Source: an uncultured Lachnospiraceae bacterium (GTDB lineage Bacteria; Bacillota; Clostridia; Lachnospirales; Lachnospiraceae). Taken from it: 64,000 nt of DNA. The notes under the pieces were generated by a model. That model did no database searches and had not been told where the DNA came from. It saw only the letters and a list, made by a program, of their open reading frames with translations. How positions within the stretch are numbered: the first letter of the stretch is position 1; each line of letters begins with the position of its first letter. Made by a program: the position numbers and the translations under genes. Shown one piece after another: positions 40,102-64,000 of this stretch. The stretch is taken from the NCBI GenBank assembly GCA_902786515.1, contig CADADA010000008.1, forward strand, positions 1 to 64,000, written 5' to 3'.

Positions 40102-42543
40102 TTATTCATTGTCCAGCATCATTTCGAATTCTCTTTCCGAAATAGGTCTCGAAAAGTAGTAACCTTGTATATAATCACAATTATGTGATACTAAAAAATC
40201 AACCTGTTCATCTGTCTCCGCACCTTCTGCCACAACTTTCGCATCCATATGATGTGCCATGCTGATTAACGAGTCTATAACTCCGTCTATCTTCTTGTTC
40301 TTTCCGATTTTCTTAACAAATTCCATATCAAGTTTTATGATGTCAAAATCATAATCCGTAATCGCATTGAAAGATGAATATCCGCTTCCAAAATCGTCTA
40401 TAAGAATCATCGCTCCAAGATTTCTCATATCTGAAATTGTCTTCATGTTGTTGCCGGCTATTGAAACATATGAAGATTCAGTTATCTCAAATCTGTATAA
40501 TCCTTTCAAATCATCCGCATTTTCCACATCAAAACGAATCTTTTCCATCATATCAACATCGAAAAAGTCCATACGTGACAGATTTACTGAAACAGGCACA
40601 ATGTGTTTACCTGAATCAATCCTTCGCTGAATAAATTCCTTCACGCTTCTCTCTATAAGAAGGTCAATCTGTGATATGTATCCATTTTCTTCCAATACAG
40701 GAATGAACAATCCCGGTGAAACAACTCCTCTTGACGGATGTATCCACCTTACCAGCGCCTCAGCCGATGCTATCTTTCTGGTCTTTGCATCATATATCGG
40801 CTGGTAATAAGCCTTAAATTCGTTATTGGCTATCGCTTCGTCAAGGACGCTCAAAATCTCGTTCTTATCAATATAAGTATCATGCATATATTTCTCATAA
40901 AATGCATAAGGTTTTACATACTCATTTTCAATGTATGTGGCGGCGAGCTGCGCCCTGTCACACATCTTGCTCACATTCATGCCTTTATCGTGTATGTTGT
41001 AGATTCCGCACCTTTGAAGAATCATAACTGTCTTTCCACTCTCAACATACATCACTCTGCATAATTCGTTGAGAACATCATAATCTATATATTTGCTCTC
41101 CACAAGACATACAAAATGGTCTGCGGTCGCCCTTGCGGTTACGATAGGATTCAGACTTGATTTCTTAATCTCATTATAAACATACTTGATAATATCGTCT
41201 CCGCTATCATTTCCGAAGATATCATTTATGGCCTTAAATCCCTTGATATTAAAAAATATAATCGCATATTCTTTATCTTTGTTCTTTTCAAGTATCTTTG
41301 CCGTATGTCTTATAAAACCAAGCCTGTTATATCCTCCCACAACTATGTCATGTTCAGATGTCTCAGTAATATCCTCAACTGTCGCCAGAATCAGATTTGC
41401 CCTTTGAGAAAAATAAATATATTTATACTTTTTCAGTCTTTTTTCGCCATTTTCCAAAATATGGTGTATATAGAACTGATAGTCATTCGACTCTTCCAGT
41501 TGCTCTACTATATAGGTTAAATCCGTCTGTATGGTAAATGTGCCTCTCTCATAATCCGGAACTATAGTCTCTGTTATCTTGTCCACCGAAACGTCATAAT
41601 CAAGTATCGTGTCCGTCTCTAATTGATCCTTATCGTCCTCAGAATTTTTCTTAAGAAGAAACAGTCTCCTCTCAACATCTATAATTCCAACCGACTCATA
41701 TTCGTTTTCGTACAAGAGTCCCGGCAGTGTCTCAGCGATGTAATTTTCAGATACATCAGTCACATAAATAGTACCCATCACATCACCGGTCTCATCTTCT
41801 TTTAACATTCTTAAAACCGTATTCACGAGACAAATCTCATTATCCTCAACATTGTAAATATGACGATATGAAACCTCTCTCGTACCGGAATCAAATAATT
41901 GCAAGAGTTTTTTTACATCAAATATTTTGAGAAAGCCCATTTTATGTTCTTCAATTTTTATATTATCTGCAACAGATTTAATAAATCCATTTACAGTCTT
42001 TTCATGCATGGCGTCCGACAGATTTATGTAATCTCCGGCACCCCATTTCATTTCGTCATCAGACAGATTTACGTAGCATATGCCAATCGCATTATTTCTT
42101 AAAGTAACATTTTCTTCAGCCCGTTCTGCCGAATCACCATAAATATCTTTCACACTCAGCAAAACAATTTGATTTTCGTCACTGTACTCCACACTTCGTG
42201 ACACTTCCATCTGAACCCAGCGGAATTCATCTCCGAATTTTCTTCTGTATCTGTATACAATAACAGATTTTCCCTGTAAAAATTGATTTTTTAATTCTTC
42301 AATGTCTGTTACTTTTTTGAATCCATCTTCATCAGCATTAAACACATTTTCATTTTTCAAATAGCCATTAACAAGAACCGAAAATGTTCTGTTCAGACCA
42401 AATTCAGTATTACCTTTCTCCGACGAACTTACAACGCTATACAAGTCATTAGTCAAATCAATTCTTAATATTTTGCAATATTCTCTTGCAAGAATCTCTA
42501 CTGCATCCTCATATTTTATATTGACAACATCTGACATTTCCAC
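40102..42543 (-). CDS. PAS-like/degenerate GGDEF/EAL c-di-GMP phosphodiesterase
   Basis: 813 residues, no membrane segment. N-terminal PAS-like sensory regions (about 1-395) lead to a GGDEF domain (about 400-550) whose active site reads RATADHF in place of RxGGDEF, so it should not make c-di-GMP. The EAL domain (about 560-810) keeps its ligands: EALVRW at 595, NLSR, FEITES, DDFGSGYSS, IKLD, VAEGAET and YIQGYYFSRP, so cleavage of c-di-GMP to pGpG is expected, perhaps under GTP control by the GGDEF relic. The start is GTG 42543, seven bases after AAGG; ATG 42537 is the alternative. It follows the FapA-like gene by 15 bp and shares its promoter. Confidence 0.9.
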   Translation of the reverse strand: MEMSDVVNIKYEDAVEILAREYCKILRIDLTNDLYSVVSSSEKGNTEFGLNRTFSVLVNGYLKNENVFNADEDGFKKVTDIEELKNQFLQGKSVIVYRYRRKFGDEFRWVQMEVSRSVEYSDENQIVLLSVKDIYGDSAERAEENVTLRNNAIGICYVNLSDDEMKWGAGDYINLSDAMHEKTVNGFIKSVADNIKIEEHKMGFLKIFDVKKLLQLFDSGTREVSYRHIYNVEDNEICLVNTVLRMLKEDETGDVMGTIYVTDVSENYIAETLPGLLYENEYESVGIIDVERRLFLLKKNSEDDKDQLETDTILDYDVSVDKITETIVPDYERGTFTIQTDLTYIVEQLEESNDYQFYIHHILENGEKRLKKYKYIYFSQRANLILATVEDITETSEHDIVVGGYNRLGFIRHTAKILEKNKDKEYAIIFFNIKGFKAINDIFGNDSGDDIIKYVYNEIKKSSLNPIVTARATADHFVCLVESKYIDYDVLNELCRVMYVESGKTVMILQRCGIYNIHDKGMNVSKMCDRAQLAATYIENEYVKPYAFYEKYMHDTYIDKNEILSVLDEAIANNEFKAYYQPIYDAKTRKIASAEALVRWIHPSRGVVSPGLFIPVLEENGYISQIDLLIERSVKEFIQRRIDSGKHIVPVSVNLSRMDFFDVDMMEKIRFDVENADDLKGLYRFEITESSYVSIAGNNMKTISDMRNLGAMILIDDFGSGYSSFNAITDYDFDIIKLDMEFVKKIGKNKKIDGVIDSLISMAHHMDAKVVAEGAETDEQVDFLVSHNCDYIQGYYFSRPISEREFEMMLDNE

Positions 42544-55498: not shown

Positions 55499-55885
55499 AT
55501 GAAAGAAAAAAATCCAATAATATTGTTTTTTGCAGGAATTGTACTGCTTGGTGCCGGTCTTTACTGGCTTTTCAATTCAGTCGACGTATCTACCATAGGT
55601 TTCGGTTTTGGATATTCATTACATCTCGGTGGCGCATCGATACCTTCCGGTCTTACCGTGGTTCCGCTTATTATTGCAATTTTCTGGTGGGTCATAAAAC
55701 CGGATTCATTCGGACCTAAGGTACTCTTTGTATTAGGACTGGTGATAATCGTAGCCGCTATCATTATGAGCGTCACACTACATTTCAGAACAAGAACGCT
55801 GTACGAATATATTTTAATGCTTGCCATGATAGTATCCGGAGCCGGACTTTTAGCAAGAGTATTACTTTCAGGAAATTCAAAATAG
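55499..55885 (+). CDS. Small four-helix membrane protein, unknown function
   Basis: 128 residues with hydrophobic helices at about 7-25, 50-67, 73-92 and 104-123, and a Gly/Ser/Phe-rich loop (IGFGFGYSLHLGGASIP) between the first two. I recognise no family. It is a single gene with its own promoter and a shared terminator, between pckA and the large signalling protein, both of which point the other way. An AAAGGA site about 12 bases upstream is the best ribosome binding site. Confidence 0.75.
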   Translation: MKEKNPIILFFAGIVLLGAGLYWLFNSVDVSTIGFGFGYSLHLGGASIPSGLTVVPLIIAIFWWVIKPDSFGPKVLFVLGLVIIVAAIIMSVTLHFRTRTLYEYILMLAMIVSGAGLLARVLLSGNSK

Positions 55886-55958: not shown

Positions 55959-58900
55959 CTATTTTAAATATTTACTCAGTCCACTAATTATATCATCCCA
56001 CTCAAGCTTCATACTTAACGAAACCATCTGTTTCTTAAATTCCTGCTGTTCATCACTCAATTCATACTCATCAAGAGACTCGAGAACCATTATTATACCG
56101 TCCATGTCCATGTTATCTGCAAATTCCTTTAATGTCATGCAAGCATCTATCCATGATTCTTCATCCAGGATTTTTTTCTGCAAACCGAACCGGACTTCCT
56201 TCACACCTCCGGCATCTCCTTCTTTAAAAGCTGTATACATTTCTAGAAGTTCATCATTTTTTTCTTTTATAATGCCGGTGTCATTCTCATCTGCTGCCAT
56301 CTCCAGTGTCTCTGCAAGTTTTGATAAATTCATTGCACCTATCATTCTCGCAGAACTCTTAATTGAATGTACCTCAGTACCATAGAGTTTCCAGTCACCT
56401 TCTTCATATGCTTTCTTAATCTTAGACGTCTTATCATCGATATCCTCTTTAAAGGCATCAAATACAATTTCAAACACCTCTTCAGAACCACAGTTTTTAA
56501 CTCCAACGTCAATATCGATATCAAGTCCGACAAATTCGTTTTCTATTTCAGGTTTCTCATCTGCATCAATTGTCTCATCTCCAAATTTGTAAATCTTGTC
56601 GTTTGGAAGATATGATAACAGAATTTCTTCAAGTCTTTCTCCATCTACCGGCTTTGTCACATAATTATCAAAGCCTTCTTTTATAAACCTTTCTCTTGCA
56701 CCTGAAATAGCATTTGCAGTAAGGGCTACAACAGGCGTATCTTTGTTAGGATTATCCTCAAGCGCTTTTAATTTTTTCAGTGTTTCAATTCCGTCCATAA
56801 TCGGCATTCTGTAATCTAAGAATATGATATCATATTTTTTATCCTGAGCCTTTTCAATACATTCCTGTCCGCTTGTCGCCTCGTCAATACACACTTTTGT
56901 TTTTTTAAGAAGTTCTCTGAATACAACAAGATTTAGTGTAGTATCATCCACTACCAGCACATTTGCCTGTGGAGCCTGAAAACTCTCCTTATACTTCTTA
57001 TATGACTCCTTTTTACTGTTAAATTTTAGATTAATGTCTCCAATACGCATCTTCGAAACGACTCTCTGCGGAATAGTAATTGTAAACTTAGTGCCCTTTC
57101 CATATTGGCTTTCAACTTCAATTTTTCCATCCATAAGTTCCAATAATCTGTTTACAATTGCCAGTCCCAGACCGCTTCCTTCTATGGTGTTGTTTTTGTT
57201 CTGGTCAAGTCTCTGGAACTTTCTATATAGTTTTCCTAAATCCTCTTCCTTGATGCCTATTCCGGTATCTCTTACCGCTATAACAAGGTTTATGCGTTCA
57301 TTGTCAATTTTTTCAAATAGAACCTGAAGCGTAACCGAACCGCTTTCTGTATACTTTATGGCATTATTAAGTATGTTGAGCATAACCTGTCTGAGTCTCA
57401 TCTCGTCTCCATAAAGCTTTTCAGGAATGGATGACTCTACATTCAAAAGCAGTTTTAAGCCTTTTTCTGTCGCCTTTAACTGAACCATATTTATAACATC
57501 CACTATTACAGTCGAAAGGTCATACTCACCTTCCACGATATCCATATTTCCTGCTTCTATCTTTGAGAAATCGAGTATGTCATTTATAAGCGATAAAAGA
57601 GTCTTGCCCGCACCTGCAATAGTTTTTGCATATTCTATAATTCTTTCATCTTCGCTTTCTCTCAATATCATTTCATCCATACCCAGTACCGCGTTAATTG
57701 GTGTTCTGATTTCGTGAGACATATTTGCAAGGAAACTACTCATCGCCTCATTTGCAGCGAGTACTTTCTGCTCCTCCATTTTTGCCAGCTGGGTTACCCT
57801 CAAAATTCCGATAAATTCATTCTGTGATACAGGATTTGAGAAGAAGAAGCCCTGCAGATAATCTACACCGAATTCATTTGCAATATCAATCTGTGCAGTG
57901 CTCTCAACTCCGGAAATCAATATTTTCTTGCCCATTTTCTTTATCATGCTGACATTGCTTTCCAATATGATACGTCCGATTTCTGAGTTTTCAGTATCCC
58001 ATAAAATGGTTTTATCTATTTTAACTATATCAAGGTTCAACGCAAGAATTGAATAAATATTGGAATATCCGACACCATAATCATCCACGGAAAAGCGGAA
58101 ACCGTACTCACTCAGCTTTCTTACAAATTCTTTAAGTCCCGCTAAATCAGTTATGGCCGAAGCTTCCATAATCTCAAAAGTAATCCTGCTTGGTTCTATG
58201 GCATATCTTGATACAATCTGTATGATTCTGTCCGCATAACTCGGCTGGATACACTGTATAACAGACAGGTTAATATTAAGCGTTTCGACGCCCATCTCAA
58301 CCGGAATTCCACTGTTAAGGAATTTACATACCTCATCAAGAACAAAATCCCCGAGTTCAAATATCATTCCGTTTCTCTCTGCCATAACGAGAAATTCGTC
58401 CGGATATATTCTTCCTATCTTCGGGTCAGTCAGTCTTAATAATGCCTCACCAAACTTAATAGTCATATCTTTTGCATCATAAATAGGCTGATAATATACC
58501 TCAAACCTATGATTCTCAAGACCACTCATCAAAGCCTTTTCCACCTGGCTTCTTCTCAGGAAGAAATCAAGATCCTGACCGAACATCACATCATCTTTTT
58601 TCTGTATATCAGCAGCCGGAGTTACCTGAATAAGTGTCATTATTTCAGCGGCTGTTTTAAAATCTTTTGGAATCTCAGCACAAAATACAATCGCATGGAA
58701 AACACATTTTCTATCCTGAAAATCCCACTCCTGTTTAAATCTATCATTGATAGCTCTTGCAAGTTCAAGATGATCACGTCTCTCCTCCAGTCCATTTAAA
58801 ATGACAAAAGTTCCCGGGTTTGAATAATAAATATTGTATTCAGGCACCAGCGTCGACATGTAATCTGTCGTCATTTTCGTAAGACTGTCAATATTCATAG

Positions 58901-59726
58901 GACCTACAAGCTGCATCGTATTCTGAGGATTAACCATTTTGACGCATATAATGCTGAATTCCCTTTTTGTGGCGATATACGTTTCGACATCTATTCCAAG
59001 TGCAACGCTGTTATAAATGCCTGTTACAGAATTCTTTCGTCCTTCTTCATTTTCTATGGTAATCATAATTCCCGTGAGTGCAATCGCTTCCATAAATAAC
59101 TCGATATGAATTTCTTTAAAGAAAAATTGTATTAATATTCCAAAAAGTATCATTGTAAAAGAATACGAAAGTGCCCTTCTCCTTTTATGGTTAATCGCCC
59201 TCCAGAACCAGAATATCATAACAAGCGTCACAAAAAAATATAATCCCGCAATAACATATATAACCTCTTCTCCCCAATTTCTCATAAAGTTATTGTTATC
59301 GTCAAAATAATACACAAAATGCCATACAGGATTTGTTAATACAAGAAATTCTGATAGGAAGATAGGAAATTCATACAGCAAATGGTGTTTTTTATTCAAC
59401 CTGTATTTTGCACCTGTAACCTCAGCAATATAAAGGCAGAACATCGGCGATAGTAATGTATGTGTGACAAAATATACATACTGTGCAACAGCTCTTGTAT
59501 AGACAAGAAAACTTGAGGCTACTCCTGCATATGTAAGTCCCATTATAATTATATCTGCCGTTGCACTTATTAATATATTGCACAAAACAGCCACAAACAT
59601 CTTATTCTGAAACTTGCGTATCTGGCCACGGATTGAAACAAAATAAATACAAGAAATGCAAATAACCATAGCAGAAAATTGAAATCCCAATTTTGTCATG
59701 TCATCAATTCCGAAATAATAATTCAT
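55959..59726 (-). CDS. Membrane EAL-histidine kinase-receiver-HPt hybrid protein
   Basis: 1255 residues. Seven or so transmembrane helices (1-225) are followed by a degenerate GGDEF-like region (about 235-385) with no active-site motif, an EAL domain (about 395-640: EAL 427-429, N486, E518, DD 548-549, K569, Q625, but Ser605 where AEGVET has its first Glu), a histidine kinase (H671 in NMSHEIRTP, N box near 787, DTGIG 820-824, GSGLGL 850-855), a receiver (DD 927-928, phosphoacceptor D971) and an HPt domain (H1120 in VHSIKSSAR). This holds a whole phosphorelay plus an EAL domain that probably senses c-di-GMP without cleaving it. No partner response regulator is adjacent. A GGGAGG site precedes the ATG. 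Confidence 0.93.
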   Translation of the reverse strand: MNYYFGIDDMTKLGFQFSAMVICISCIYFVSIRGQIRKFQNKMFVAVLCNILISATADIIIMGLTYAGVASSFLVYTRAVAQYVYFVTHTLLSPMFCLYIAEVTGAKYRLNKKHHLLYEFPIFLSEFLVLTNPVWHFVYYFDDNNNFMRNWGEEVIYVIAGLYFFVTLVMIFWFWRAINHKRRRALSYSFTMILFGILIQFFFKEIHIELFMEAIALTGIMITIENEEGRKNSVTGIYNSVALGIDVETYIATKREFSIICVKMVNPQNTMQLVGPMNIDSLTKMTTDYMSTLVPEYNIYYSNPGTFVILNGLEERRDHLELARAINDRFKQEWDFQDRKCVFHAIVFCAEIPKDFKTAAEIMTLIQVTPAADIQKKDDVMFGQDLDFFLRRSQVEKALMSGLENHRFEVYYQPIYDAKDMTIKFGEALLRLTDPKIGRIYPDEFLVMAERNGMIFELGDFVLDEVCKFLNSGIPVEMGVETLNINLSVIQCIQPSYADRIIQIVSRYAIEPSRITFEIMEASAITDLAGLKEFVRKLSEYGFRFSVDDYGVGYSNIYSILALNLDIVKIDKTILWDTENSEIGRIILESNVSMIKKMGKKILISGVESTAQIDIANEFGVDYLQGFFFSNPVSQNEFIGILRVTQLAKMEEQKVLAANEAMSSFLANMSHEIRTPINAVLGMDEMILRESEDERIIEYAKTIAGAGKTLLSLINDILDFSKIEAGNMDIVEGEYDLSTVIVDVINMVQLKATEKGLKLLLNVESSIPEKLYGDEMRLRQVMLNILNNAIKYTESGSVTLQVLFEKIDNERINLVIAVRDTGIGIKEEDLGKLYRKFQRLDQNKNNTIEGSGLGLAIVNRLLELMDGKIEVESQYGKGTKFTITIPQRVVSKMRIGDINLKFNSKKESYKKYKESFQAPQANVLVVDDTTLNLVVFRELLKKTKVCIDEATSGQECIEKAQDKKYDIIFLDYRMPIMDGIETLKKLKALEDNPNKDTPVVALTANAISGARERFIKEGFDNYVTKPVDGERLEEILLSYLPNDKIYKFGDETIDADEKPEIENEFVGLDIDIDVGVKNCGSEEVFEIVFDAFKEDIDDKTSKIKKAYEEGDWKLYGTEVHSIKSSARMIGAMNLSKLAETLEMAADENDTGIIKEKNDELLEMYTAFKEGDAGGVKEVRFGLQKKILDEESWIDACMTLKEFADNMDMDGIIMVLESLDEYELSDEQQEFKKQMVSLSMKLEWDDIISGLSKYLK

Positions 59727-59805: not shown

Positions 59806-60690
59806 TCAGAAATCTGATATAATTCCATACATCTCAGGTCTTCTGTCCCTGAATAATCCCCATGATAAACGATTTTTTTCTATCTCCGAAAGATTGTACT
59901 CTTCTATAAGTATTTCCTCCTGATTTCTTGATGCCTGACTGATTATATCCCCGGTCTCGTCAGTACAAAAAGATGAACCGTAAAATACAAGTCTTGAACT
60001 TTGTTTTGCATTTTCTTCACATGGTTCCACAACTTCTTCTCCCACTCTGTTTGCCGCAATAACCGGTACAAGGTTTGCTGCAGAGTGCCCCTGCATACAT
60101 CTCCTCCAGTGAGGCATGCTGTCACATTCCAATATAGGTTCTGAACCTATCGCAGTAGGATATAATAAAATCTCTGCTCCCATAATTGCCATACTTCTTG
60201 CAGTTTCAGGAAACCACTGGTCCCAGCAGATTCCTGCTCCTATTTTAGCGTACTTTGTATCAAACACCATAAATCCTGTATCACCGGGTGTAAAATAGAA
60301 TTTTTCCTGATAAAAATGATCATCCGGTATATGTGTCTTTCTATAGACCCCAAGTATCTTTCCACCTGCATCTATCATTGCAACAGAATTATATAATACA
60401 TTTACATCTTTTTCATAAAAACTGATTGGAAGTACGACATCCAATTCTTCAGCCAGTCTCTGTCCCATCTTCACAGCCGGATTTTCCTCTGTACAAACTG
60501 CGTAATCATAGAAATCATATCTTCTCTGCTGGCAGAAATATTCCCTCTCAAACAACTCCGGAAGCAAAATCACTTCAGCTCCCCTGTCTGCTGCCTCTCT
60601 AATCATATGTTCTGCCTTTTTCAGATTTTCTTCTATTTCTCTACTGCATTTCATCTGAATTGCAGCCACTTTCACCTTTCTCATGGTCAT
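59806..60690 (-). CDS. aguB: N-carbamoylputrescine amidase
   Basis: Hydrolyses N-carbamoylputrescine to putrescine, CO2 and ammonia. A nitrilase-superfamily enzyme of 294 residues with the catalytic triad E45 (LLPELFE), K118 (YRKTHIPD) and C155 (GICWDQWFPE), and the AguB-type stretch MPHWRRCMQGHSAANLVPV. The ATG at 60690 overlaps the aguA stop by one base (TGATG), so the pair is translationally coupled; ATG 60684 is an alternative. It is the last gene of the polyamine operon. Confidence 0.94.
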   Translation of the reverse strand: MTMRKVKVAAIQMKCSREIEENLKKAEHMIREAADRGAEVILLPELFEREYFCQQRRYDFYDYAVCTEENPAVKMGQRLAEELDVVLPISFYEKDVNVLYNSVAMIDAGGKILGVYRKTHIPDDHFYQEKFYFTPGDTGFMVFDTKYAKIGAGICWDQWFPETARSMAIMGAEILLYPTAIGSEPILECDSMPHWRRCMQGHSAANLVPVIAANRVGEEVVEPCEENAKQSSRLVFYGSSFCTDETGDIISQASRNQEEILIEEYNLSEIEKNRLSWGLFRDRRPEMYGIISDF

Positions 60691-61811
60691 CAATTCCTTT
60701 CATTACTGCCTGAACAAATCTGCTGTGTGATACAGTGGATATTACCTCCGCCTGCCAAAATAGCTCCCGCTTCCACCTGAATAACTTCCCTGTCAGGACA
60801 CAGGCTTTCAAGTATACTCTTTGCAAGCCTGTCACTTTCACGGTTTCTGCCTCCAAATGCCGGCAAAATCACGGCACCATTTGAAATATAAAAATTCACG
60901 TAGGAAGCTGCAAGACGCTCTCCAATCTCTCTCGTATCTTCCCCCTCTTCAAATTCGTATCCCTGCAAATCCTCCTCACTAACGCATACAGGATAATCCG
61001 GTATCGGGAGTTTATGAACAATAATTTTCTCTTCTTCAAGCACTTTAAGGCATGAAGCTGACAAATCATATTGAGGGTCGTCCTTGTCATCTGTCCACGC
61101 AAGCAGGACATGCCCCGGTTTTATAAATGCACAAATGTTATCCACATGTTCATCAGTCTCATCATTATAAATTCCTCTCGGAAGCCATATAACCTTATGT
61201 GCTCCCAGATAAGATTTTAGTTTTTCTTCTATTTCACTCTTTGAAAGTCCCGGATTTCTTCCTTTGCTTAACAGACATGATTCAGTAACCATAACTGTTC
61301 CCTGTCCGTCGCTGTGAATCGCCCCTCCTTCTAACACAAAAGGCGATGCATCATAAGAATCAATACCAAGATATTCCGCCATTTTTATTGCAAACACATT
61401 GTCATTTTCCCAATTAGCATATAGTCCGTTATATTCTCCGCCCCATGCATTAAACTCCCAGTTAATGGCTCTTACGCTTCCTGACTTATTTTTCACAAAT
61501 GTAGGCGCAATATCCCTTGCCCATGAATCATCTGTTTTTATCACAACTATCTCCACATCCGGCGTTTCTTTCAGATAATTCTGTGCACGACTATATATCT
61601 CCTCCGATTCAGCCACAACATATACATGTTCACTCCTGCTTATAGCCCTGATAACCTCAGCAAAAGCAATCTCTGCGGGGGTTTTGTCCTTTTTCCATGA
61701 CCCCGGCCTGAACGGCCATATAACTATACATCCGTCATGTGGTTCATATTCTGCCGGCATATAAAATCCGTCTCCGGCCGGCACTGTGTCCTTTATGATT
61801 TTTAAACTCAT
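60690..61811 (-). CDS. aguA: Agmatine deiminase
   Basis: Converts agmatine to N-carbamoylputrescine and ammonia. The 373 residues belong to the peptidyl-arginine-deiminase-like family: MPAEYEPHDGCIVIWP at the start, DDSWARDIAP near 95, the WEFNAWGG stretch, ETDEHVDN near 216 and the nucleophile C360 in GGGNIHCITQQ. The ATG directly follows the nspC stop. The product is the substrate of the next gene, aguB. Confidence 0.96.
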   Translation of the reverse strand: MSLKIIKDTVPAGDGFYMPAEYEPHDGCIVIWPFRPGSWKKDKTPAEIAFAEVIRAISRSEHVYVVAESEEIYSRAQNYLKETPDVEIVVIKTDDSWARDIAPTFVKNKSGSVRAINWEFNAWGGEYNGLYANWENDNVFAIKMAEYLGIDSYDASPFVLEGGAIHSDGQGTVMVTESCLLSKGRNPGLSKSEIEEKLKSYLGAHKVIWLPRGIYNDETDEHVDNICAFIKPGHVLLAWTDDKDDPQYDLSASCLKVLEEEKIIVHKLPIPDYPVCVSEEDLQGYEFEEGEDTREIGERLAASYVNFYISNGAVILPAFGGRNRESDRLAKSILESLCPDREVIQVEAGAILAGGGNIHCITQQICSGSNERN

Positions 61812-62930
61812 CTACGATAGCCTTTCTTTAAAATCCTTATATTCAAATCTTTTAATTAATTCGGTGCTTCCGTCTTCTTTCAGCAAAACAATATCCGGCA
61901 ACGGTATTCCATTAAATGTGTTATTTTTAACCATTGAATAAATAGCCATATCCTCAAACACCAGTCTGTCACCAATCTGTACCGGATTTTCAAAGCTGTA
62001 ATCCCCAATCACATCACCTGCAAGACATGTAACAGATGAAAGTCTGTAAGTATATGGCTTTTCACCCGCTGCAAATCCATTTCTTAATGGCGGACGGTAA
62101 GGCATTTCCAAAACATCCGGCATATGGCAGGCTGCAGATGCATCAAGTATAAGTATATTCATGTCATTTTTTACGATATCCATCACTTCAGTCACCAGAT
62201 ATCCTGCGTTAAGCGCTATAGCTTCTCCCGGTTCTAAATATACTTCAACATCATATTTTTCTTTGATATAATGAATTAATTTCACCAGCCTGTCTATGTC
62301 ATAATCTTCTCTGGTTATGTGGTGTCCTCCACCCATATTAAGCCATTTCACTTTATTTAAATAATCACCAAACTGTGCCTCAAACGCCTCAAACGTAGTC
62401 ACAAGATCATCAGAATTCTGTTCACAAAGAGTGTGAAAATGAAGTCCTTCAATGCCTCCTTCGCCAAACAGCAGGTCTTTCGGAAGCTCATCTGCAACCA
62501 CGCCAAGTCTTGAGCCTTTTCCGCATGGGTCATATATTTCGTGTCCCTCCTGCGTGGAACACATGGGATTCAATCTCAGGCCTGCGCTTACACCTGCACA
62601 CTTATCTTTATATTTTTTGTACTGTGCTACAGAGTTGAATATTATATGGTCGCATATATTTACAAGCTCGTCCATGTCTTTTTCTTTGTAAGCCGGTGCA
62701 AATACATGATTTTCCTTTCCCATCTCTTCATAACCCAGCCTTGCTTCATATAGTCCGCTTGCTGTTGTTCCACTTATATACCTGCCGATAAGCGGATAAA
62801 GCCTGTATGCAGAAAATGCTTTTTGTGCCAGCAAAATCTTTGAACCTGAAATACGTTCTACTTCTGCAAGTATCTTTAAATTTTCTGTCAGCTTTTTTTC
62901 ATCTATAACATAACAGGGTGTATTAAGCAT
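61812..62930 (-). CDS. nspC: Carboxynorspermidine/carboxyspermidine decarboxylase
   Basis: A PLP enzyme of the alanine racemase fold III type that decarboxylates carboxyspermidine to spermidine (or the nor-forms). 372 residues from ATG 62930 behind AAAGGAG. The PLP lysine lies in LLAQKAFS near residue 35; HFHTLCEQN, NMGGGHHITREDYD and LEPGEAIA are family stretches, and the conserved GDYSFENP and FEDMAIYSMVKNNTFNG lie near the C terminus. It sits 10 bp after the dehydrogenase gene that makes its substrate. Confidence 0.94.
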   Translation of the reverse strand: MLNTPCYVIDEKKLTENLKILAEVERISGSKILLAQKAFSAYRLYPLIGRYISGTTASGLYEARLGYEEMGKENHVFAPAYKEKDMDELVNICDHIIFNSVAQYKKYKDKCAGVSAGLRLNPMCSTQEGHEIYDPCGKGSRLGVVADELPKDLLFGEGGIEGLHFHTLCEQNSDDLVTTFEAFEAQFGDYLNKVKWLNMGGGHHITREDYDIDRLVKLIHYIKEKYDVEVYLEPGEAIALNAGYLVTEVMDIVKNDMNILILDASAACHMPDVLEMPYRPPLRNGFAAGEKPYTYRLSSVTCLAGDVIGDYSFENPVQIGDRLVFEDMAIYSMVKNNTFNGIPLPDIVLLKEDGSTELIKRFEYKDFKERLS

Positions 62931-62940
62931 TTTTTCTCCT

Positions 62941-64000
62941 TTAGTCAACTAATACCGGATTTTCCTCAACTACCCATGGAAGTCCGTACTTATTAAGCAT
63001 ATCCATGAACGGGTCCGGATCAAACTCTTCTATAGTAAATACGCCTTCACCGTCCCATTTTTTATCTGCAACCAATGCTGCTCCTATCATCGCCGGCACA
63101 CCAGTTGTATAAGAGATTGCCTGTGAGCCTACTTCCCTATAGCATTCCTGATGGTCACATACATTATAAATGTAAATACTCTTCTTTTTTCCATCCTTTA
63201 TTCCAGTAAAGATACAGCCTATATTTGTCTTTCCAACTGTTCTTTCGCCAAGTGTTGCAGGATCCGGCAGTAATTCTTTTAAGAACTGAATCGGAACTAT
63301 TTCCTGACCATTAAAATTAACCGGAGTTGTAGAAAGCATTCCAACATTTTCAAGACATTTCATATGTGTAAGATAACTTTGTCCGAATGTCATGAAGAAA
63401 CGTATTCTTTTAACTCCGGGTATATTTTTTGCAAGTGATTCTATCTCTTCATGATGTAGCAGATACATATCTTTTTTACCAACCTGTGCAAAATCATACT
63501 CCCTCTTTATTGACATAGGTTCTACTTCAACCCAATGTCCGTCTTCCCAATAAGAGCCCATTGCCGATACTTCTCTTAAATTTATCTCCGGATTGAAATT
63601 CGTGGCAAAAGGATAACCGTGGTCACCACCGTTGCAGTCCAGAATATCTATTGTCTCAATCACATCAAAATAATGTTTCAAGGCATATGCCGTAAATACG
63701 CTTGTTACACCCGGGTCAAATCCGCTTCCACACAATGCAAGAATTCCTGCTTCTTTGAATTTTTCATGATAAGCCCACTGCCATGAATAATCAAAATAAG
63801 CTGTAAAGCCTTTTTCTTTACAACGCTTTTCGTATATGGCTCTCCACTCTGCATCATCCGTATCTTCCGGTTCATAATTAGCCGTATCTATATAATCTAC
63901 CTTGCATTTTAAGCAGGCTTCCATAATAGTTAAATCCTGATAAGGTAAAGCGACATTAAGCACTGCTGCAGGTTTGTAATCTTCTATTAATTTTACAAGT
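62941..64000 (-). CDS. Carboxynorspermidine/carboxyspermidine synthase (saccharopine dehydrogenase-like), 5' end off window
   Basis: NADPH-dependent condensation of putrescine (or diaminopropane) with aspartate semialdehyde, making carboxyspermidine. The frame stays open to the window edge (KLIEDYKPAAVLNVALPYQ precedes the first Met at 63963), so the N-terminal Rossmann start is missing. Visible stretches, VDYIDTANYE, LCGSGFDPGVTSVFTAYA and DCNGGDHGYPFATNFNPE, are typical of the carboxynorspermidine synthase branch of the LYS1/saccharopine dehydrogenase family. It is the first visible gene of the operon; an arginine decarboxylase could lie upstream. Confidence 0.92.
   Translation of the reverse strand, partial: LVKLIEDYKPAAVLNVALPYQDLTIMEACLKCKVDYIDTANYEPEDTDDAEWRAIYEKRCKEKGFTAYFDYSWQWAYHEKFKEAGILALCGSGFDPGVTSVFTAYALKHYFDVIETIDILDCNGGDHGYPFATNFNPEINLREVSAMGSYWEDGHWVEVEPMSIKREYDFAQVGKKDMYLLHHEEIESLAKNIPGVKRIRFFMTFGQSYLTHMKCLENVGMLSTTPVNFNGQEIVPIQFLKELLPDPATLGERTVGKTNIGCIFTGIKDGKKKSIYIYNVCDHQECYREVGSQAISYTTGVPAMIGAALVADKKWDGEGVFTIEEFDPDPFMDMLNKYGLPWVVEENPVLVD

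Follow-up and report, generated by a model that had tools for sequence, protein, structure and literature searches.

The window, by which we mean the whole stretch of 64,000 nucleotides analysed here, contains on its reverse strand a gene for a protein of 1255 amino acids (55959–59726). It is a single unbroken reading frame, and its ATG start codon has a strong Shine-Dalgarno-like GGGAGG immediately 5' to it. Going from the N-terminus, the protein includes a membrane sensor region (residues 1–225; 59052–59726), a relic GGDEF region (residues 226–394; 58545–59051), an EAL domain (residues 398–632; 57831–58535, Pfam E 3.5e-55) and a linker (residues 641–661; 57744–57806), all on the same strand. 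These are followed by HisKA (57549–57743; Pfam residues 662–726, E 1.1e-18), HATPase_c with N, G1 and G2 boxes (57066–57410; residues 773–887, E 8.5e-29), a receiver domain (56622–56960; Response_reg, residues 923–1035, E 2.9e-24) and an HPt domain (56223–56459; residues 1090–1168, E 1.5e-9). This is the domain order of a tripartite hybrid kinase, with the acceptors H, D and H present. The open reading frame and the Pfam matches bear out the sequence-only reading, which had placed all these parts in one chain and had named H671, D971 and H1120 as the relay residues; they lie at these positions in HisKA, the receiver and HPt, respectively. BarA, TorS and ArcB share the order HisKA-HATPase-REC-HPt and differ in having another sensor, whereas here an EAL domain precedes HisKA. 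The score was 358 bits with the BarA model (NF008318, curated cut-off 890), below the level of an equivalog, and 336 bits with the TorS model (curated cut-off 676.5). A short way past the 3' end of the kinase gene, the other strand carries a gene for a small membrane protein (55499–55885), which is kept in a related genome, G004.

Based on hydropathy, several hydrophobic stretches occur in residues 14–224, and HisKA_7TM (PF16927) matched residues 19–219 weakly (20.2 bits, below the cut-off of 28.6). The corresponding region of a kinase-free relative of G334 reached 34.0 bits against the same cut-off. A multi-helix membrane region is supported by these data, and the exact count of seven helices proposed earlier is not proven. 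In the next region, NPGTF occupies the position of the diguanylate cyclase motif GG[DE]EF, and no Pfam match to the GGDEF profile was found in the protein. The motif was degenerate in all 44 aligned rows. Since related proteins gave GGDEF matches from weak to just significant (24.8 bits in G263, cut-off 23.8), the label "relic GGDEF" is a fair one. An AF2 model of residues 1–735, built on a two-sequence alignment, had a pLDDT of 37.5 and was set aside.

EAL domains normally degrade c-di-GMP. The domain found here belongs to this family (PF00563) by its profile match and by the EAL barrel fold of an AF2 model (residues 396–642, three-sequence alignment, pLDDT 80.5). The closest solved structures were 2r6o from Thiobacillus denitrificans, MorA, BifA and PdeA (Z 29.3–29.9, rmsd 2.0–2.2 Å), with Z about 30 to 2r6o and 4rnh. 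The metal ligands E427, N486, E521, D548, D549, E608 and Q625 and the lysine K569 are all present. The sequence-only reading had stated that most metal ligands are kept, which holds and understates the case, as every other pocket residue tested, R431 included, is retained. The exception is Ser605 (codon 57912–57914), which takes the place of the leading Glu of EGVE in an alignment with MorA and BifA, so that the earlier claim of a serine in place of the conserved catalytic Glu was confirmed. EAL domains without this Glu, the catalytic base, are classed as PDE-inactive (Cao et al. 2026, PMC12900916). Because the EGVE Glu is predicted to be essential for catalysis, the domain is probably without hydrolytic activity. 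The window encodes another EAL protein (40102–42543, 813 aa), which has a partial GGDEF match followed by an EAL domain with an intact EGAE motif and is likely to be an active phosphodiesterase.

To place the protein among its relatives, 60 related genomes, 397 of the family, 391 of the class and 398 of the phylum were searched (partly overlapping sets, more than 1000 genomes sampled). At least nine full-length EAL-kinase fusions were found, a number obtained by scoring the best few candidates per genome, so that divergent cases may be missed. All of them belong to the window's own family (Lachnospira-type group): the window's genome (G000), G004, G006, G139, G207, G263, G334, G1021 and G1141. 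A 75%-identical ortholog is present in an uncultured Lachnospira MAG (L060). Since nine genomes share the same fusion and the same junction, chance or misassembly is excluded. The order of an EAL domain followed by a hybrid kinase, noted earlier as unusual, is indeed rare and confined to one family in our sample, but it is not unique to the window's genome. No described case of an EAL domain fused to a kinase, or of a Lachnospiraceae hybrid kinase with an EAL domain, was found in the open-access literature searched. The relay residues are complete in eight of the nine fusions, and the ninth (G334) has no HPt. At the G334 locus (L092, 3142–8246), the gene immediately after the HPt-less fusion encodes a membrane-EAL protein without a kinase, in which the second Asp of the EAL domain is replaced by Gly and the EGVE Glu by Ile.

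Much commoner than the fusions are proteins of about 640–690 aa with the membrane, relic GGDEF and EAL regions, two of which are encoded in the window's genome. They are homologous to the fusion over its N-terminal 645 residues (about 26–40% identity) and differ from it in having no kinase. With operon partners left out, the EGVE Glu is present in 30 of 32 such relatives, and these 30 are, judging from their sequences, probably active phosphodiesterases; in the other two it is replaced. In the fusions, by contrast, this Glu is replaced in nine of nine, by S, S, S, T and S in the window's sub-clade and by K, R, S and A in its sister sub-clade. The loss is probably one ancestral event, and therefore the nine cases are not nine independent observations.

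In trees of 85–88 related cores of hybrid kinases, those of the fusions fall into one clade (support 97 with seven fusions and 81 with nine), and the EAL-to-HisKA linker aligns without gaps in the seven fusions compared. For these two reasons, one fusion is preferred as the simplest and probable history, and repeated independent fusions behind the nine-of-nine pattern are disfavoured. The EAL-side tree alone does not force one origin. In it, the window's sub-clade (G000, G004, G139, G006 and G207, from four genera) is fully supported. The other four fusions lie near it, inside a 19-row EAL clade which also holds seven intact kinase-free proteins.

The two sub-clades differ in the state of the pocket. 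Across the five members of the window's sub-clade, none of the remaining 11 pocket positions tested, which comprise nine residues and two glycines, shows any variation, compared with invariance at 117 of the 246 EAL columns (48%; hypergeometric P 2e-4). Identity to the window's protein is higher in the EAL domain (65–85%) than in the membrane part (40–64%) and HPt (41–65%), and a comparison of the window with G004 gave a dN/dS of 0.04 in the EAL domain and 0.19 in the membrane part, with dS near saturation. Judging from these comparisons, the pocket is under purifying selection in this sub-clade. In the sister sub-clade (G334, G263, G1021 and G1141), several metal and substrate ligands are lost and the kinase is intact; identity to the window's protein is 34–38% in the EAL domain and 74–82% in HisKA. 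Hydrolysis may have been lost at or soon after the fusion; one sub-clade would then have kept binding and the other would have given it up.

Based on the above results, we suggest that the pseudo-EAL domain is a non-hydrolytic c-di-GMP sensor, in the style of FimX and LapD, which tunes a BarA-like phosphorelay within one chain; we give this reading a probability of about 0.6. The membrane helices would sense a signal, and the EAL domain would bind c-di-GMP through its retained pocket. The resulting rearrangement would reach HisKA by way of the conserved helical linker and shift the balance between kinase and phosphatase. Phosphate would move from H671 to D971, then to H1120, and finally reach a response regulator, which in most relatives is probably the receiver protein encoded by the adjacent gene. 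We observe the architecture, the conserved relay residues, the loss of the Glu and the selection on the pocket, and infer c-di-GMP binding, the lack of hydrolysis, control of the kinase and the direction of this effect, phosphotransfer, and the partner or target. The window's genome has 15 GGDEF and 7 EAL matches, and c-di-GMP is therefore likely to be made. The idea that the EAL domain acts as an input to the phosphorelay, already put forward in the sequence-only reading, fits the pattern of Glu loss and the invariant pocket of the window's sub-clade. It does not extend as easily to the sister sub-clade, where the pocket has decayed beside an intact kinase, so that not every member requires an input from c-di-GMP.

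Non-catalytic EAL domains serve as c-di-GMP receptors in LapD (PMC3032553) and, according to a 2023 review of c-di-GMP receptors, in FimX (PMC10519070). The likeness to these proteins lies in the EAL fold (3hv8, Z 27.8; 3pjt, Z 26.3), in a relic GGDEF region before the EAL domain, and in a retained pocket with a predicted loss of catalysis. Their output, however, consists of protein contacts, whereas here it would be a kinase. In addition, LapD has lost the first Glu of the EAL motif (KVL; PMC3032553), and here only the EGVE Glu is lost.

Direct action of c-di-GMP on a histidine kinase, as proposed here, has parallels in ShkA, CckA, SgmT and PdtaS, but none of these uses an EAL domain. CckA binds c-di-GMP at its catalytic region. 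In the hybrid kinase ShkA, which is under direct c-di-GMP control, the ligand is bound at a pseudo-receiver (PMC7010744), and the 2023 review describes binding by GGDEF in SgmT and by GAF in PdtaS (PMC10519070). The kinases named in the passages considered here bind by a pseudo-receiver, GGDEF, GAF or an unstated site, none of them by EAL. Given that precedents are known for each half, a non-catalytic EAL receptor and a c-di-GMP-controlled hybrid kinase, the arrangement is not categorically new.

Other explanations of the same data must be weighed. The EAL domain may be only a structural or dimerisation module that binds no c-di-GMP, with the signal coming from the membrane region alone. Since four of the nine fusions lost metal and substrate ligands and yet kept both the domain and the kinase at the identities given above, the EAL fold may be retained for other reasons. 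A pure scaffold, however, does not require the pocket that is invariant, Glu aside, in the window's sub-clade, and we consider this explanation unlikely, though a serious one.

It is also conceivable that c-di-GMP hydrolysis persists in the domain, at a low rate or with a different residue as base, and that the protein is a phosphodiesterase tied to a relay. The presence of all metal ligands and of Lys569 would agree with this, but published work takes the loss of precisely this residue as the sign of an inactive phosphodiesterase (PMC12900916), and no fusion has Glu at that position; we find residual activity improbable. As for the ligand, the invariant residues are compatible with another nucleotide, and the kinase might be tuned by pGpG or another cyclic dinucleotide. 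The exact ligand is not readable from the sequence, and the EAL domain of FimX has been solved together with pGpG (4afy). Against this, all tested canonical EAL pocket residues except the Glu are kept and GGDEF proteins are present in the genome, which makes a different ligand, if anything, slightly more improbable still. Sensing of c-di-GMP by the pseudo-EAL domain is the reading that we prefer.

As for the genomic surroundings, the gene directly upstream of the kinase on the same strand is aguB-like (N-carbamoylputrescine amidase-like, 59806–60693), preceded by aguA-like (agmatine deiminase-like, 60690–61811), nspC-like decarboxylase (carboxy(nor)spermidine-type, 61812–62948) and CASDH-like dehydrogenase (62941 to past the window end) genes, all on the reverse strand. 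Outside the window, at 64217–67336 of the contig, there are speE-like (spermidine synthase) and speA-like (Orn/Lys/Arg decarboxylase) genes and a response regulator gene. In the window's genome and in G004, the run is co-directional from the regulator through the speA-, speE-, CASDH-, nspC-, aguA- and aguB-like genes to the kinase, which comes last. The gap between the aguB-like gene and the kinase is 79 bp in the window and 25 bp in G004, and no terminator-like site was found in the 79-bp gap. The polyamine genes and the kinase are perhaps on one transcript. The physical link is seen in these two species only, and in three further members of the genus the polyamine genes occur with no EAL-kinase next to them.

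A different regulator, of about 255 aa, directly follows the fused gene in six of the nine genomes (G006, G139, G207, G263, G1021 and G1141). It has a C-terminal receiver and no output domain; its N-terminal half has no recognised domain, and the name "pseudoREC" comes from length and pattern only. No such pseudoREC-REC regulator adjoins the kinase in the window's genome or G004. The regulator heading the polyamine run has no other full-length counterpart of its type elsewhere in the window's genome. Its orthology to the kinase-adjacent regulators was rejected by the tree (AU p 2.8e-5), and it groups with another G006 regulator (support 97/98). The fusion is also followed, in G1021, G1141 and G334, by a membrane-EAL gene that has no kinase part and is catalytically degenerate. 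Two loci (L228, 5168–11669; L229, 4571–11074) show a three-gene unit of fused EAL kinase, pseudoREC-REC regulator and kinase-free degenerate membrane-EAL, the last branching inside the fused clade as if its kinase had been lost. A Rosetta-stone arrangement, with a kinase-free EAL gene adjoining a hybrid kinase gene, gave no consistent pattern in 20 loci.

A link between polyamines and c-di-GMP is known from Vibrio, where it is made by NspS-MbaA (PMC8967002); it is offered here as an analogy only. A doubtful but more far-reaching scenario is that, after one fusion, the EAL domain was converted to an allosteric c-di-GMP input, and that in the Lachnospira-type lineage the relay was recruited to the end of a polyamine operon with a regulator at its head, linking c-di-GMP to polyamine supply.

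If the preferred reading is true, the protein would directly join c-di-GMP to two-component signalling at the protein level, by means of an EAL domain that is a pseudo-enzyme. Such a bridge would lie in gut Firmicutes, a group with few well-known outputs of c-di-GMP. In addition, the family offers a natural experiment, with probably active kinase-free relatives, fusions with a dead but preserved pocket and fusions with a decayed one.
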